Shown piece by piece: positions 35,762 through 42,793 of a stretch of 64,000 nucleotides of DNA. Source of the DNA: Aurantimonas aggregata (lineage in GTDB: Bacteria; Pseudomonadota; Alphaproteobacteria; Rhizobiales; Rhizobiaceae); NCBI RefSeq assembly GCF_010500835.1, contig NZ_JAAAMJ010000008.1:62001-126000 (forward strand), read 5' to 3'. Position numbers and translations under genes: made by a program. The stretch's first letter is position 1. Every line of letters begins with the position of its first letter. The notes below the pieces were generated by a model, which did not search any database, was not told where the DNA came from, and worked only from the letters and a program-made list of their open reading frames with translations.

Positions 35762-36565
35762 TCAGGCCTGGACTTCGCTCGTCGTCCGCCGGATTTCTGC
35801 GGCGAGTTCGGGCGGTAGCTTGAGCTGCGCCGCCAGCCGGTCGAGATAGGCGCGCTCGGCCGGGTGGTCGGCGTCGATCGCCAGCACCGAGGCCGTGTAG
35901 ACCTCCATGGCGATCTCTGGCGTGGAGGTGCGGGAGGCCAGCTGCTCGGGGGTCATCGGCCGGCGCATCTCGTCGACCAGGAAACCCTTCTCCTCGGCGT
36001 CGAGATCGAGTTCGTCGATCCGGCCGAAGATCGCCTGCTCCTCGTTGGCGTCGATGTAGCCGTCGGCCTTGGCGGCGGCGATCATCGCCGACAGCATCAG
36101 GCGCGAGCGGACCTCCTCCTCGCCCGCCGGCAGGAAGGCCGTGCCCTTGGGCTCGGGAATCTCGCCGGCCGTGGTGGCCGCGGGAAGCTGGCGGAGCGGC
36201 TCGGCGCCGGGCAGGGCGGTCTGACCCTGCTGCGCCTGGTAGGACTGATAGGCCTTGTAGGCGAGGCCGGCGACGAGCGCCGCGCCACCGAGCTTCAGCG
36301 CCGTGCCGCCCAGCTTGCCGACGCCCTTGCCGCGGAACAGGCTGGTGGCGAGACCGCCGGCCAGTGCGCCACCAAGCGCCGATCCGGCGCCGCCCTGGAG
36401 CATGCCGCCGAGGCCGGAGCCGGAACCACCGCCCTGCAGCATGCCGCCCAGCTGATCGACCAGCGACCCACCGCCCTGTCCGGGGCGGTTCTGGCCGGGC
36501 TGCGAGCCTGTCGTTCCCTGTCCGTTGGTGCCGAGGAATTGGCCGAGTAGCTTCTGAATGTCCAT
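35762..36565 (-). CDS. DUF533 / TerB-like tellurite-resistance-type protein
   Basis: A 267-residue protein with an N-terminal glycine- and glutamine-rich disordered part (repeated GGMLQGG, residues about 35-65), a glycine-rich hydrophobic segment (LGGTALKLGGAALVAGLAYKAYQSYQ, about 85-112) that may be membrane-associated, and a C-terminal TerB/DUF533 helical domain (LMLSAMIAAAKADGYIDANEEQAIFGRIDELDLDAEEKGFL with acidic, metal-binding-like residues). YebE-like family of unknown function. ATG at 36565; the preceding TTG is less likely. Confidence 0.9.
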   Translation of the reverse strand: MDIQKLLGQFLGTNGQGTTGSQPGQNRPGQGGGSLVDQLGGMLQGGGSGSGLGGMLQGGAGSALGGALAGGLATSLFRGKGVGKLGGTALKLGGAALVAGLAYKAYQSYQAQQGQTALPGAEPLRQLPAATTAGEIPEPKGTAFLPAGEEEVRSRLMLSAMIAAAKADGYIDANEEQAIFGRIDELDLDAEEKGFLVDEMRRPMTPEQLASRTSTPEIAMEVYTASVLAIDADHPAERAYLDRLAAQLKLPPELAAEIRRTTSEVQA

Positions 36566-36824
36566 CAATACGAGGTCCCTGGTTGCGTTGCTGCTTGCGA
36601 TATCGGCACCGAACCGGCCGATCGCAATGGCGCGATTGTTTTGAAAAGCCGTGGTTGCCGGGACCGTTCCCGAAATCGGTGGCGATTGTTAACCCGCGCT
36701 TCATCATCCGGGCGGATCGCACCGAGGCGAGGGCCGGTGTGACATCGTCGCTCTCGCGTGACGTATGATAGTCGGCTATTGACCTTTTACCGGGATCGAG
36801 ATCCCCTTGCGAGAAGTAGCCTTC

Positions 36825-37358
36825 GTGCCCTCTGCCATCATTCCGCGCCGTCGCTTGCTTCAGCTGGTGGTCGCTGTTGCGGCCCTGTCGCTCGGCAGCC
36901 TAACCAATACAGCCAGCGGCGCCGAGCGGGTTCGTGTCGACACCGCGGGCCTGGAGGCCGGGGCGATCATGGTCAGGACTTCCGAGCGCCGGCTTTATCT
37001 GGTGGTCGGACCGGGCAAGGCCATCGGCTACGACGTCGGCGTCGGACGCGCAGACCGGCAGTGGACGGGTACTGCGGCGATCACCGGAAAATACATTCGC
37101 CCGAACTGGGCCCCGCCGCTCGCGGTGCTCAAGGACCGGCCCGATCTTCCCGCGATGATCCCGAGCGGTGCGCCGAACAATCCGATGGGCGAGGCGGCGA
37201 TGACGCTGTCCGGCGGAGAATACGCCATTCACGGGACCAACCGGCCGGGATCCATAGGCGGCTTCGTGTCCTATGGCTGCATCCGCATGCACAACGCCGA
37301 CATATTGGACCTCTACGCCCGCGTCGCCGTCGGCACGCCGGTCACGGTCATGCGCTGA
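36825..37358 (+). CDS. L,D-transpeptidase (YkuD domain), exported
   Basis: Peptidoglycan cross-linking enzyme forming 3-3 links or attaching lipoprotein. From the GTG at 36825 (preceded by GAGAAG at 8 bases) the 177-residue protein has a signal peptide (residues 1-33, RRRLLQLVVAVAALSLG core) and a single YkuD domain: the catalytic motif is H136 of IHGTN and C152 of SYGCIRMHN. The IRPNWAPP segment matches the family. A TTG at 36807 would add six residues. Monocistronic, converging on the Crp/Fnr gene. Confidence 0.93.
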   Translation: MPSAIIPRRRLLQLVVAVAALSLGSLTNTASGAERVRVDTAGLEAGAIMVRTSERRLYLVVGPGKAIGYDVGVGRADRQWTGTAAITGKYIRPNWAPPLAVLKDRPDLPAMIPSGAPNNPMGEAAMTLSGGEYAIHGTNRPGSIGGFVSYGCIRMHNADILDLYARVAVGTPVTVMR

Positions 37359-37426
37359 GCTGCAGCAGTATGACCACCGAGGCCGTGTGCGGCACGTTCG
37401 TCAGAGAGGTTTCGTGTCGCCCCACA

Positions 37427-38092
37427 TCAGGGATGCGTCCCGTCATGCGGGACGTCGGCATCCACGACGCTACGCAGCGAAGGATGCACGATCAACTGAT
37501 CACTGTAGCTGATGAAGCCCAGACGGCGGAACTTGTTCATGAAATAACAGACGCGCGAGCGGGTCGTGCCGACCATTTCCGCCAGCACTTCCTGGCTGAC
37601 TTTCACCGCCGCTCCATCCTGGTCAACTTCGGCGAGAAGCAACAGCAGGCGCGCAAGCCGTTTCTCGCTGGAGTTGAGGATGTGATCGATCAGATCTTCC
37701 TCCATGCGGCCAGCACGGGCCGCAAGGCGGGAAACGACGGTCGCGGCAAATTCCGGGTCATGCTGCAGCAATTGCAGGAAGGCCGTCCTGTCCCATCGGG
37801 TGATCCTGCTGTCGACCAAGGCTGTCGCGGTAGCGTTGCGCACTGGCTGCGGCTCGGCGAGGCACGTCTCGCCGCAGAATACGCCATCCGGCAGAACCGC
37901 GATGACGGCTCCCTTGCCATTGGGGGAGAGGGCGGAAATCTTGACGAGTCCACGCCGGATGAAGAAAACCGCGTCGCCTTCATCGCCCTGGACGAAGATC
38001 CGCTCTCCCTTGGCATAATCGCAGAGGGTCCCTCCCTCCGGGGCCAACAGATGACCCGGGGATAGCGATGACGAGACGACGCAGCCTGTCAT
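37427..38092 (-). CDS. Crp/Fnr family transcriptional regulator
   Basis: Regulator with an N-terminal cyclic-nucleotide-binding-like beta barrel (residues about 25-120; IFVQGDEGDAVFFIRRGLVKIS) and a C-terminal helix-turn-helix (VKVSQEVLAEMVGTTRSRVCYFMNKFRRLGFI). The barrel lacks the RxS cAMP-phosphate motif of CRP at the expected place and there is no FNR-type N-terminal cysteine cluster, so the effector is unknown. The CYFMNKFRRLGFI recognition helix resembles a rhizobial subgroup. 221 residues. Divergent from, and 115 bases from, the autotransporter gene. Confidence 0.93.
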   Translation of the reverse strand: MTGCVVSSSLSPGHLLAPEGGTLCDYAKGERIFVQGDEGDAVFFIRRGLVKISALSPNGKGAVIAVLPDGVFCGETCLAEPQPVRNATATALVDSRITRWDRTAFLQLLQHDPEFAATVVSRLAARAGRMEEDLIDHILNSSEKRLARLLLLLAEVDQDGAAVKVSQEVLAEMVGTTRSRVCYFMNKFRRLGFISYSDQLIVHPSLRSVVDADVPHDGTHP

Positions 38093-38163
38093 TTGCGTAT
38101 CCGATCAGCAACGGCAAGCGACACAATTACACGTTGTTCAATATAGCTCAGATTCCCGTCGGG

Positions 38164-38181
38164 AAAGCGATTAAACGCTTT
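38164..38181. promoter_or_regulatory. 18-base dyad in the Crp/Fnr - autotransporter intergenic region
   Basis: Arms AAAGCG (38164-38169) and CGCTTT (38176-38181) flank an AT-rich ATTAAA centre, 27 bases before the autotransporter ATG. A CRP-type regulator normally binds a two-fold site with a 6-base centre; this dyad is a candidate for it, though the sequence does not match CRP or FNR consensus. Confidence 0.35.
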
Positions 38182-38207
38182 GTGATAGGGGAAATTCAGG
38201 GGTTCGC

Positions 38208-40316
38208 ATGATGAAGGTACTCGCTGGGGTAAAACTGACCATGGCCGCTTTGGCGGTCATTGGCGCAGGGGAAACGCGGTCGCTGGCACAGAGTCTCGAC
38301 AGCTTCGGTGTGCTGGCGGGATCCACGGTCACCAATACCGGGTCCACCGTTATCAACGGCAATGTCGGCGTCAGCCCAGGCACCGCGGTCGTCGGTTTTC
38401 CGCCAGGCATTGTGAACGCACCCTACGCGACGTTCCTCAATGATGGTGTCGCGGTTCAGGCGCAGATCGACCTGACGAACCGGTATGTCGACCTATTCAA
38501 TCGGCCGGCAACGATCAATCTCTCCGGGCGGGATCTAGCCGGGCTGACCCTGTCACCCGGCGTGTTCAAGTACGATACCTCGGCGCAGCTCTCTGGGACG
38601 CTGACCCTCGACGCGCAGTTCAATCCGAACGCCGTCTTCATCATCAATATCGGCAGCACGCTGACGACGGCGAGCACCTCGACGGTATCGCTGATCAACG
38701 GTGCGCAGGGTGCTAATGTATTCTTCGTGGTCGGAAGCTCGGCGACGCTCGGCACCGAGACGACGCTGGCCGGGCAAATCCTCGCCCTGACGAGCATCAC
38801 GCTCAACACCGGCGCCGACATCCTCTGCGGTGCCGCTTTGGCCCGCAACGGCGCGGTAACACTGGACACCAACAGGATCACGGTGTGCCCGGCAGTGACC
38901 GTGCCGGTGGTTCCGGTGGTGACGCCGCCGGTCGTGACCCTGCCCGATGGCACGCCCGTCGTCGTGGTTCCGCCCGGCACGCCGGTGGCGACGCCCCCGG
39001 ATGGCACCCCCATAATCACCCTCCCAGACGGCACGCCGGTGTTCATCCTGCCCGACGGCAGTATTGCGATCGTGGCTCCCGTGGTCCTGCCGACTCCCGC
39101 GGCCGTCTCCGTCGCTGACGGCATCGATTCGTTCGTTGCCGGCGGCGGCGAGTTGCCGCTGGTCTTCCGCCTGTTGACGCCCGCGCAGACCGTCCTGGTC
39201 CTCGAGCAGTTGACCGGCGAGGTCGCCACGTCGGTAGCGCCGGCCGGCCGGCAGGCGATGAACTCGTTCATGAACGAGGTCTTCGACCGCATGAACGAGG
39301 GACCCTACGCCCCCGAGACCGTCCCTGAACAGCCGGCGCCGCCGGCCACGGTCCGGGTTCTCGGCTATGGCCCGGAGGCCGGCACGACCCTGCAGATGCT
39401 GGGCGGCGTCGCCATGTACGGCGCGCCGGTCGCAGCCCCGCCGCCTCAGACGAAACCCTGGAATGGCTGGATTGCCGGCTACGGCCAGGAGACCCGGACC
39501 GACGGCGACAGCTATTGGGGATCGCATGACCGCGAAATCGACACGGTGGGCGTCGCCGTCGGCATCGATTACGCGCTGACCCCCGACACGATTGCCGGCT
39601 TTGCCGTCGGTCTCGGCCGGAGCACTTTCGGGCTCGACGGCGCCAGCGGTTCCGGCGAAAGCGACATGGTGCATGCGGCGATCTACGGTCGGACCAATTT
39701 CGATGCCGCCTATGTCGCGGCCTCGATCGCGGTCGGCTACAGCGACGTGTCGACGGAACGCGACCTGACGATCGGCATAACCGAGCGCTTCGATGCCGAC
39801 TTTTCCGCCTGGAATCTCGCCGGCCGGGTGGAAACCGGCTATCGCTTCGATGTCCCCGAGATCGCTGTGATACCGGGCCGCGGGTGGTTCACGCCTTATG
39901 CCAGTCTGCAGGTCCAGCAGTATTATACGCCGGACTACAGCGAGACGTCGGACAGCAATTCGGTCTTCGTCCTCGACGTCGACTCGAGCGACTCGACCGG
40001 CGTGCGGACCGAACTCGGCGCCCGGTTCGGCCAGATCATCCCGCTCTCCGACGATGCCACGCTCAAGCTGCGCAGCCGTCTTGCCTGGGCCCACGACGAA
40101 GTGTCGGGACAGACCCTCGACGCGAGTTTCCGGGCGCTGCCGGGGTCGGACTTCCAGATCAAGGGTGCCGACGAGTCCGGCGATTACCTGCTCGCCTCGG
40201 CGGGAGCGGAAGTGGCCTGGTCCAATGGGCTGGCGGTGGGTGCCACCTTCGACAGCGAACTCTCCAGCGACTCCACCACGCTCTCCGGCATCGGACGGGT
40301 CAGCTACCGCTGGTAG
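38208..40316 (+). CDS. Autotransporter with ice-binding-like (DUF3494) passenger domain
   Basis: Surface protein of 702 residues. Signal peptide residues 1-28. Residues about 30-228 are a DUF3494 ice-binding-like beta-solenoid: LDSFGVLAGSTVTNTGSTVINGNVGVSPG, then LSPGVFKYDTSAQLSGTLTLDAQ and VFFVVGSSATLGTETTLAGQILALTSITLNTGADI; C207 and C227 could form a disulfide. A stalk at 229-298 holds imperfect proline-rich PDGTP repeats. About 305-365 is the pre-barrel segment (LTGEVATSVAPAGRQAMNSFMNEVFDRM) and 415-702 an autotransporter beta-barrel ending in the terminal aromatic residue W. This passenger type mostly serves as adhesion or ice-contact domain; here it is a predicted adhesin. Upstream AGGGG ribosome site supports the first ATG; a second ATG follows directly. 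Confidence 0.9.
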   Translation: MMKVLAGVKLTMAALAVIGAGETRSLAQSLDSFGVLAGSTVTNTGSTVINGNVGVSPGTAVVGFPPGIVNAPYATFLNDGVAVQAQIDLTNRYVDLFNRPATINLSGRDLAGLTLSPGVFKYDTSAQLSGTLTLDAQFNPNAVFIINIGSTLTTASTSTVSLINGAQGANVFFVVGSSATLGTETTLAGQILALTSITLNTGADILCGAALARNGAVTLDTNRITVCPAVTVPVVPVVTPPVVTLPDGTPVVVVPPGTPVATPPDGTPIITLPDGTPVFILPDGSIAIVAPVVLPTPAAVSVADGIDSFVAGGGELPLVFRLLTPAQTVLVLEQLTGEVATSVAPAGRQAMNSFMNEVFDRMNEGPYAPETVPEQPAPPATVRVLGYGPEAGTTLQMLGGVAMYGAPVAAPPPQTKPWNGWIAGYGQETRTDGDSYWGSHDREIDTVGVAVGIDYALTPDTIAGFAVGLGRSTFGLDGASGSGESDMVHAAIYGRTNFDAAYVAASIAVGYSDVSTERDLTIGITERFDADFSAWNLAGRVETGYRFDVPEIAVIPGRGWFTPYASLQVQQYYTPDYSETSDSNSVFVLDVDSSDSTGVRTELGARFGQIIPLSDDATLKLRSRLAWAHDEVSGQTLDASFRALPGSDFQIKGADESGDYLLASAGAEVAWSNGLAVGATFDSELSSDSTTLSGIGRVSYRW
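38934..39069 (+). repeat. Imperfect tandem repeats encoding the PDGTP stalk
   Basis: Within the autotransporter gene the segment encodes four to five degenerate copies of a roughly 10-residue unit (LPDGTPV, PPGTPV, PPDGTPI, LPDGTPV, LPDGSI). Copy number is likely to vary among strains and makes assembly error-prone. Confidence 0.8.
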
Positions 40317-40324
40317 GAACAACT

Positions 40325-40349
40325 GCCGGCGGGGGCGACCCCGGCCGGC
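40325..40349 (+). terminator. Hairpin after the autotransporter gene
   Basis: 10 base pairs with one bulged G (arms 40325-40334 and 40339-40349, GCGA loop) start 8 bases after the stop. No T tract follows, so it may be a weak terminator or 3' stabiliser. Confidence 0.45.
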
Positions 40350-40371
40350 ACAGACCGGCGGCGCGGGTGCC

Positions 40372-41031
40372 TTAGCTCTTGCCCGCGTCCGCGACCTTCG
40401 GCTCCAGCGCATGCCGCTTCAGCAGCGGGATCTGCGTCAGCATGAAGACGATGGTGATCGGCATCGTCCCCCACACCTTGAATGCCACCCACGCATCGGT
40501 CGAGAAATTCCGCCAGACGACCTCGTTCAGCACCGCGAGGAACAGGAAGAACAGGCCCCAGCGCAGCGTCATCTTGCGCCAGCCTTCGGCATCGAGCTTG
40601 AAGGCCTGGTCGAAGACGTAGCCGAGCAGCGACTTGCCGAAGGCAAGGCCGCCGAGCAGGACCGCCCCGAACAAGGCGTTGACGATGGTCGGCTTCATCT
40701 TGATGAAGGTCTCGTCCTGCAGCCACAGGGTCAGCGTCCCGAACACCAGCACCACGGCGCCGGACACCAGCGGCATGATCGGCAGGCTGCGGGTAATCGC
40801 CCACGAGACCGACAGCGAGATCGCCATCGCGGCCATGAACAGGCCGGTCGCGATGAACAGCGGTCCGCCGAGTTCATGCAGGACGGGAAACGCTTCGGCC
40901 AGCTGGTCGCCGCGCGAATTGGCGAAGAAGAAGACCAGCAGCGGCCCGAGCTCCAGCGCGAATTTCAGGAGCGGGTTCATCTCCTTGCGGGCAGGACTGT
41001 TCGGGTCTTCTTCGAGGATGTGGTCGCGCAT
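40372..41031 (-). CDS. yciB: Septation protein A (YciB family)
   Basis: Five-helix inner-membrane protein (YciB/IspZ) involved in cell-envelope synthesis and septation. Family segments: [44 protein letters not shown] and [31 protein letters not shown]. 219 residues from the ATG at 41031; the frame continues upstream without homology. It ends the dapF-mtaB-ftsY-yciB gene row, 89 bases downstream of ftsY. Confidence 0.95.
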
Positions 41032-41120
41032 GGAAACTCCGTGTTCGGCGTGGCTATCGGCGCGGAAGCCGGCAAATGCGAGGCATCGCCGGAACAATCC
41101 TGCGTGCGTCGTCGCCGGCG

Positions 41121-42793
41121 CTACGCGTCGGCCGTCGTGCCGGCAATGGCGTCGGCAAAATCCTTCGCCCTGAACGGCTCCAGATCGTCGATCCCTTCGC
41201 CAACGCCGATGAAATACACCGGCAACTTGTGCTTGGCGGCAATGGCCACGAGGATGCCGCCGCGGGCCGTGCCATCCAGCTTGGTCATCACCAGGCCGTT
41301 CACCCCCGCGACGTTGCGGAAGATCTCCACCTGCTGCAGGGCGTTCTGGCCGGTAGTGGCGTCGAGCGTCTGCAGGACGGTGTGCGGTGCGTCCGGCTCG
41401 CGCTTCTGCAGGACGCGGACGATCTTCTCGAGCTCGGCCATCAGCTCGGTCTTGTTCTGCAGCCGGCCGGCCGTGTCGATGATCAACACGTCGGAATCGT
41501 TCTCGATGGCCCGGTCATAGGCCTCGTAGGCAAGGCCAGCCGCATCGGCGCCGATCGCCTTGGCAACGACCTCCGATCCGGTGCGCTCGCCCCAGATGTT
41601 CAGCTGCTCGACGGCGGCGGCCCGGAACGTGTCGCCGGCGCAGAGCGTCACCTTGAGCCCGGCGCGCGTCAGCTTGGCGGCGAGCTTGCCGATCGTTGTC
41701 GTCTTGCCGGTGCCGTTGACGCCGACGACGAGGATCACGTGCGGCTTCTTCTCGAGGTCGAGTTCCAGCGGCACCGCCACAGCCGTGAGCGTCTTCTCGA
41801 CCTCCTGGGCGAGGATGCCGCGGACTTCGGCCCCCGAGACCGTCCGGCCGAAGCGGCCTTCCGACAGCCGGTCGGTGATGCGCAGCGCCGTCTCGAGGCC
41901 GAGATCGGCGCGGATCAGCACGTCCTCGAAATCCTGCAGCGTCTCCTCGTCGAGCTTGCGGGCGGTGAAGATCGAACCGATCGACCCGGACAGCTGGTTG
42001 GACGAGCGCGACAGGCCTTCGCGCAGGCGCAGCAGCCAGGGTGCCCGCACCGGCTCGGCGGGTGCCGCCGGCGCGGGTGCCTGCCGCAGCCGGAAGCCCG
42101 CGTCGGGATCGATGGTCGGACGGGCAGCGGGCGGCGCGAGCGGCGTGGCGGCTGCCGGCTCGTCGAAGCTCGGCTCAATCCGCTCGACGTCGGTCGGGAC
42201 GGTCTCGTCGTCCTCGGGCGGCAGGTCTTCGTCGAGCCAGGAAAAGTCCGCCTCTTCCGCGTCCTCCTCCGGTTCGTGACCGTCGAGATGATCCGCGTCG
42301 GATGCCGGCGCAACGGGCGGCGCGACGGCCTCAGCCTCATCCGAGGGCTCCCGCGTCTCGCCTTCGACCGGGGGCACGCCCGGCTCAAGGAAGGAGAAGT
42401 CGACCTCGGCCGGCTCCGGCTCGGGCGACTCGAGGAAGGAGAAATCCGCGCCGTCCTTCTCGTCTTCGGGAAGTTCAGTCAGCCAATCGGAGTTTTTTTT
42501 TGAGCCGGGCCCGAGTGATCGTCGGATTTCGCGTCTGCCGCCGCCGCCATCTCGGCCAGCGGCGTGATGCCGCCGCCATCGTCGCCGGCACCCCCGTCGT
42601 TGGCGGCGCCGGCCTCGTCGTCGGCGACGGAACTGGCGGCCGCGACCGGGCGTACTTCCGGATCGGGCGATCCCGGCCGGCCATATTCGCTGTCCGAAGC
42701 GCGCGGCGTCGTGCCATGCTCGGGCGTGCGCTCTGCCTCCGTATCGGAGCCGAAGGAGAAGACGCGCCGAAAGAAGCTCTTTTTGTCAGCCAT
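41121..42793 (-). CDS. ftsY: Signal recognition particle receptor FtsY, interrupted by a frameshift at an A9 run
   Basis: SRP receptor GTPase that docks the Ffh-ribosome complex at the membrane. The start (42793) gives [16 protein letters not shown], a typical FtsY lipid-binding N terminus, and an acidic A domain. That frame stops at 42479-42481. The rest, in the -1 frame, begins exactly at the nine-A run and continues with an acidic region with repeated DFSFLE/DFSFLE/DFSWLD, then the NG domain: [18 protein letters not shown]1 [33 protein letters not shown] and [10 protein letters not shown]. No good ATG opens the second frame (GTG at 42377 is the first). The combined protein would be about 555 residues. 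The start overlaps the mtaB stop by eight bases. Because ftsY is essential, either slippage restores the frame, the GTG-initiated NG form suffices, or the sequence has lost a base. Confidence 0.9.
42493..42501 (-). other. A9 homopolymer, putative slippery site in ftsY
   Basis: Nine T on the plus strand (nine A in the coding strand). Upstream frame reads GCT-CAA-AAA-AAA-ACT and ends eight codons later; shifting -1 on AAA-AAA gives AAC-TCC-GAT, which enters the FtsY body. One added A (transcriptional slippage) has the same effect. Homopolymers of this length also cause sequencing error. Confidence 0.85.

Follow-up and report, generated by a model that had tools for sequence, protein, structure and literature searches.

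Introduction

Most work on proteins with a DUF3494 domain has dealt with antifreezes that polar microbes secrete. Among the described proteins closest to the one reported here, the head-less ice-binding proteins (IBPs) EfcIBP (6eio) and nIBP of Nostoc are either free or of the PEP-CTERM type, whereas the domain in our sequence is the passenger of an autotransporter. The Nostoc protein has been modelled on the 6eio template, and in the head-less subgroup two rows of Thr/Ser residues on the b side form the ice-binding site (PMC7783341). An ice-binding module that is likewise held on the cell is found in the RTX ice adhesin MpIBP (PMC5014055) and in the tandem beta-sandwich protein SfIBP of Shewanella (PMC7783341). 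Their tethers are of the type I RTX or Ig-like kind and not a type V barrel as in our protein, and the ice-binding region of MpIBP, unlike our passenger, is not a DUF3494 domain.

The union of an ice-binding domain (PF11999) and an autotransporter barrel (PF03797) is already on record. Table 1 of an Arctic metagenome survey includes pfam11999_pfam03797 ('Autotransporter beta-domain', 'Secretion') at 24.83 RPKM (PMC9957290), the same two-domain architecture as that of our protein. That table gives abundance only; in the text covered, the organism, the stalk, an L,D-transpeptidase (LDT), a Crp/Fnr regulator and an operator are not described, and YkuD is missing from the families that the survey lists as frequent neighbours. 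We found no account in the open-licence literature of the LDT and Crp/Fnr gene context presented below, in which the linkage is statistically strong. Agrobacterium and Brucella, which belong to the same order as our host, have YkuD LDTs that tether outer-membrane beta-barrels to peptidoglycan, and LD cross-links have been shown (PMC11527210, PMC12729407). E. coli became cold-tolerant when it received an LDT cloned from the DNA of an Antarctic rhizosphere (PMC9717686), and the level of E. coli LdtD goes up during cold shock (PMC12729407).

Results

The window, that is, the whole stretch of 64,000 nucleotides analysed, carries a DUF3494-autotransporter fusion gene (IBAT) on the plus strand (38208-40316) that encodes 702 aa. 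The host genome is Aurantimonas-like: the protein of A. endophytica DSM 103570 (L007), the sole locus from a scan of genome contigs, is 95% identical across residues 2-702. The passenger matches PF11999 (Ice_binding) at residues 35-225 (38310-38882; E 1.3e-53, 182.2 bits against a cut-off of 28.7) over the entire profile (1-208 of 208). PF03797 (Autotransporter) is called at residues 421-681 (E 6.5e-48, 164.1 bits against a cut-off of 26), within a barrel that extends to the C-terminal Trp (residues 421-702, 39468-40313), and there is no other Pfam-A family in the protein at E up to 1. As in type Va barrels, PF03797 is C-terminal and the protein terminates in an aromatic residue (SYRW). In NCBIfam, the barrel model TIGR01414 scored above its cut-off and the ice-binding equivalog under its own.

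The remaining parts of the protein were read from the sequence. A signal-peptide-like N-terminus (residues 1-28, 38208-38291) precedes the passenger, and a degenerate PDGTP/PPGTP stalk (residues about 229-290, 38892-39077) follows it, in which Tandem Repeats Finder reported no DNA tandem array at score 30. Cys207 and Cys227 (38826-38888) probably form a disulphide that closes the last coil, and a pair of this type at spacing 20 is present in 17 of 19 relatives. Between stalk and barrel lies a conserved linker (VADGID...LTGEVAT..., residues about 302-414, 39111-39449) common to the 16 proteins of the barrel lineage IBAT1 described below, whose alignments begin at query position about 304. Single-sequence structure prediction of residues 29-307 gave a mean pLDDT of 37.5; a solenoid fold of the passenger is predicted from homology to solved structures. 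An earlier note on this DNA had proposed an autotransporter that displays a DUF3494-like domain (residues 30-228) on a degenerate proline-rich stalk, with C207 and C227 framing the end of the solenoid, in a rhizobium-like host. The note had named a failure of HMMs to call DUF3494 at residues 30-228 as a refutation, and the PF11999 call at 35-225 goes against it. The reading frame, both domains, the stalk, the cysteine pair and the host all stand; its premise about other anchors does not (see below), and it overlooked the neighbouring LDT and Crp/Fnr genes.

The nearest solved chain to the passenger is the antifreeze protein EfcIBP (6eio; E 1.5e-43), with 92 of 195 aligned residues identical (47%); fungal and other bacterial DUF3494 IBPs come next. 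The two proteins share the same Thr rows. Over five successive coils, the EfcIBP alignment places Thr133, 151, 180, 198 and 218 in row 1 and Ala136 followed by Thr154, 183, 201 and 221 in row 2, and the b-side face was assigned by this alignment. Among 19 fusions, row 1 is Thr/Ser at 93 of 95 positions, and row 2 is Thr/Ser at 70 of 76 positions in coils 2-5, the rest being 4 Asn, 1 Ala and 1 Gly. Because these rows fall on the side that forms the ice-binding site in head-less IBPs (PMC7783341) and are kept in the 19 fusions, they support a competent ice-binding face. They might instead be kept for the fold. Taken together, homology and the Thr rows make adhesion to ice or to a surface plausible for the passenger.

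Within the genus, 3 of 8 genomes contain PF11999 at E up to 0.001. The family sample gave 5 of 297 and the order sample 13 of 397; in the class and phylum samples the counts were 5 of 385 (3 above the cut-off) and 23 of 398 (21 above the cut-off), respectively. For genus g185 the count was 7 of 14 genomes. In total, 19 distinct Hyphomicrobiales genomes with PF11999 were collected. Each has one DUF3494 gene, and each of the 19 genes is followed in frame by a barrel, as detected with the window's barrel as query; both Pfam domains were confirmed in the window and in the 7 more fusions that were scanned. The earlier note's premise that DUF3494 domains are usually held by other anchors fails in this order, where every DUF3494 gene found was a barrel fusion. 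At the phylum-level DUF3494 loci outside the order (L161-L189), an HMM built from the fusion barrels detected no barrel at E 1e-3, a search that a distant barrel could escape. No relative turned up when viral contigs were scanned. The plasmid collection has 63 records that match part of the fusion protein, not one of which reaches 80% coverage; its closest free DUF3494 domains come from actinobacteria (Streptomyces, Rhodococcus and Embleya), at up to 59% identity.

The fusion barrels belong to separate autotransporter lineages, IBAT1 (n=16; support 99/96) and IBAT2 (n=3; L030, L033 and L037; 100/99), and the IBAT2 barrels are sister to the barrels of 3,370-aa proteins. A single barrel origin for all fusions was rejected (p-AU 2.6e-18). 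In the passenger tree, a branch (95/92) parts the 19 fused domains from 5 actinobacterial ones, and the free alphaproteobacterial domain of L020 is not resolved from the fused domains. Two barrel lineages together with this passenger grouping indicate either that the passenger was joined to a barrel on two occasions or that a barrel was exchanged. In the fusion tree, moreover, Aurantimonas clusters with some members of genus g185 (100/99), and monophyly is rejected both for family f1 (p 0.0044) and for g185 as a whole (p 0.0006). The FtsY tree, on the other hand, retains the f1 and g185 clades and rejects sub-clade A of the fusions (p-AU 1.6e-6), which consists of the window, L025, L026, L031, L035, L039 and L040 (100/99). 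Either the genes were transferred horizontally or the conflict stems from hidden paralogy followed by losses; none of the 19 genomes has two fusions.

A YkuD LDT gene lies close to the fusion gene on the same strand (36807-37358; PF03734, 83 bits against a cut-off of 23.4). Its catalytic motif (HGTN...SYGCIRM), including Cys158, is invariant in an alignment of the 16 linked enzymes. When all open reading frames of at least 90 aa in the 12-14 kb surrounding each of the 19 fusions were clustered, with antisense frames set aside, only three families recurred in at least three genera: the fusion itself at 19 loci from 10 genera, the LDT at 16 loci from 7 genera, and the Crp/Fnr regulator at 8 loci from 3 genera. 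Sixteen of the 19 fusions have the LDT gene as a neighbour. It invariably has the orientation of the fusion (16/16), is equally often upstream (8) and downstream (8), and accompanies IBAT1 only (16/16 versus 0/3 for IBAT2). As a control, 20 of 30 non-fusion autotransporter places in the same genomes were taken, in one of which (L140) the barrel HMM missed the barrel. The LDT was present at none of the 20 within 11-20 kb (Fisher p 2.6e-8 against 16/19, a value that ignores the relatedness of the fusion loci, whose counts are non-independent). The idea that this LDT is a general companion of autotransporters was rejected by these control loci. The genomes have 7-21 YkuD genes each (24 genomes counted), and from their density a YkuD gene inside 5 kb is predicted for only 0.61 of the 19 loci.

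The presence of a close LDT also follows that of the fusion. In a search of 394 genomes of the order, with at most 8 candidates scored per genome, each of the 10 fusion genomes of families f1, f16 and f40 had an LDT matching at E 1.1e-50 or better; among the candidates scored in 34 fusion-less genomes of these families no match was better than 9.7e-39. The association is not exclusive, in that other families have LDT homologues of 54-60% identity without the fusion. A tree built from 57 LDTs groups the linked enzymes and the close unlinked ones apart from paralogues (98). In it the 16 linked enzymes fall on one side of a branch whose support is only 35. A narrower LDT tree has too little resolution to tell co-inheritance from independent histories, as sub-clade A is neither recovered nor rejected (p-AU 0.15). 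A second LDT, 62% identical to that of the window and distant from the fusion gene, was observed at G361:C1:1413412-1413912.

Divergent from the fusion gene is a Crp/Fnr-type regulator gene (37427-38092, minus strand) with a cNMP-binding fold (PF00027, 71 bits) and a Crp-type HTH (PF13545, 43 bits). The stretch covering the recognition helix (GTTRSR...FMNKFRRLG) is invariant in 8 regulators. All seven members of sub-clade A have a divergent Crp/Fnr gene, a long stalk and the gene order LDT, crp, fusion; from the last Cys to the LxGE motif, their stalks measure 96-135 residues, against 56-64 in sub-clade B (n=9). In six of the seven (all but the window), an exact TGAGC-N6-GCTCA palindrome lies upstream, 74-98 bp before the start used; some fusion starts are approximate and these distances depend on them, so that a later start in L040 would give about 69 bp. 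The window has the operator-like TGTTC-AATATA-GCTCA (38135-38150), two mismatches from this palindrome and 73 bp before the fusion gene, which is not significant alone, as 17 such sites occur in the window against 43 expected. Shuffled sequences contain TGAGC-N6-GCTCA at 0.01-0.04 per kb, and its ten bases are kept across genera while the flanks differ. With up to one mismatch allowed, it is absent upstream of the other 12 of 12 fusion loci. One of these, L041, belongs to sub-clade B; a Crp/Fnr gene is divergent there as well, and the locus has a TGTGC-N6-GCACA palindrome. Two perfect inverted repeats between crp and fusion, TTCCCGTCGGGAA (38152-38164) and AAAGCGATTAAACGCTTT (38163-38182), occur in the window only and were set aside. 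Scans of the block for sigma-70-like promoters and for terminators gave nothing above chance.

In the window, the LDT-crp-fusion block (36569-40371) lies between a DUF533 gene (35762-36568, minus strand) and ispZ (IspA/IspZ; 40372-41097, minus strand), which is followed by ftsY (41121-42377, minus strand). The three genes are present together in 3 of 8 Aurantimonas genomes and are all missing from the ispZ site in the other 5. In four of these five, the homologues of DUF533 and ispZ are direct neighbours whose alignments are 76-105 bp apart; in the fifth (L055), another gene follows ispZ and then the contig ends.

Discussion

We propose, with about an even chance of being right, that the fusion and its neighbours form a horizontally spread envelope cassette, in which an ice-binding-type DUF3494 head is displayed on the cell and the LDT remodels the wall beneath it, joined by a regulator in sub-clade A. 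The domains, the gene linkage, the conserved palindrome, the presence or absence of the block and the gene-tree conflict are the computed components of this reading. The fusion gene would encode a type Va autotransporter with an EfcIBP-like DUF3494 beta-solenoid of the ice-binding type as its passenger. Because the barrel belongs to the PF03797 family, we infer surface display, in which the passenger would stay uncleaved. The barrel and the proline-rich stalk would then hold it outside the outer membrane and allow contact with ice, its presumed ligand, or with another ordered surface. The periplasmic YkuD LDT would act jointly with the adhesin by altering, under the same conditions, how peptidoglycan is cross-linked or how the outer membrane is attached. 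In sub-clade A, the divergent Crp/Fnr-type regulator is predicted to bind TGAGC-N6-GCTCA before the fusion gene. The cassette itself may have spread horizontally between Hyphomicrobiales families.

A bolder reading is that of a mobile cassette by which alphaproteobacteria of leaves, roots and soil anchor themselves to ice. Here a Crp/Fnr-type switch would turn on both a stalked ice adhesin on its autotransporter barrel and an LDT that fastens the outer membrane or the barrel to the wall, which would keep growing ice from tearing apart a cell in its grip; the passenger would have been captured by barrels twice. We consider this version improbable. As for the LDT, we favour a role in strengthening the wall by LD cross-links, like that of E. 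coli LdtD in cold shock and in keeping with the cold-tolerance clone, over the barrel tethering of the bolder case, for which Agrobacterium and Brucella are the models, because an autotransporter would offer no free periplasmic N-terminus to accept the link, its N-terminus ending outside.

The envelope cassette has to be weighed against other functions of the passenger. It could be a surface adhesin for a non-ice target such as a plant surface, a polysaccharide or other cells, for which the DUF3494 solenoid is a scaffold. The relatives of the host are not known psychrophiles, PF11999 is present in many ice-free environments (PMC12337378), and the nearest free plasmid domains are those of Streptomyces, Rhodococcus and Embleya, all of which agree with such a target. 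However, both Thr rows are nearly invariant in the 19 fusions and the closest relatives of known structure go by the name of antifreeze or ice-binding proteins, and we regard a non-ice adhesin as somewhat unlikely. Many type Va passengers are cleaved, which counts for the idea that the passenger is released as a soluble inhibitor of ice recrystallisation and that the barrel is merely a secretion device. Most characterised IBPs are secreted too (PMC9957290), but the two conserved classes of stalk length better suit a tethered head, and release seems very unlikely to us.

The linkage of the LDT could also be a matter of hitch-hiking, in which the genes moved jointly once and were kept by descent without a joint function. 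That the 16 loci are related and that the LDT family exists elsewhere without the fusion would fit this account. Nevertheless, the position of the LDT varies while its direction never does, apart from the Crp/Fnr gene no further neighbour recurs in several genera, and the close LDT tracks the fusion in three families among the candidates scored (10/10 versus 0/34). We therefore judge hitch-hiking unlikely, and the envelope cassette remains our preferred reading.

The recurrence of the LDT linkage over 7 genera and 3 families, in one branch with an operator-like palindrome of its own, leads to a testable idea: that a non-marine Gram-negative cell uses a DUF3494 domain as an anchor and survives the load. 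The fusion is also a natural partner gene for asking what roles individual LDTs have in the Hyphomicrobiales.

Several DUF3494 loci differ from this pattern or vary it. The fusion gene at L058:5775-7664 (G1063) has an in-frame TAG within the barrel, and this copy may be broken or mis-sequenced. Alphaproteobacterial DUF3494 proteins outside the order (L020 of G908, L175 and L176) have a PEP-CTERM-like hydrophobic tail and no barrel. The actinobacterial plasmid proteins (L061:1854-4126, L062:1821-3710, L060:1851-3308, L059 and L064), the closest free domains in the plasmid collection, bear long low-complexity tails of the PGVPG, GSPGAP and TTAG types; having no barrel, they would be displayed, if at all, by another route. 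A class F sortase gene (NCBIfam, above the cut-off) follows the DUF3494 gene in L061, and a neighbour in L062 is annotated as a class F sortase, yet has no NCBIfam match. Finally, paired adjacent DUF3494 genes were seen in phylum-level genomes, at L168/L183 (G1086) and L171/L184 (G1083).
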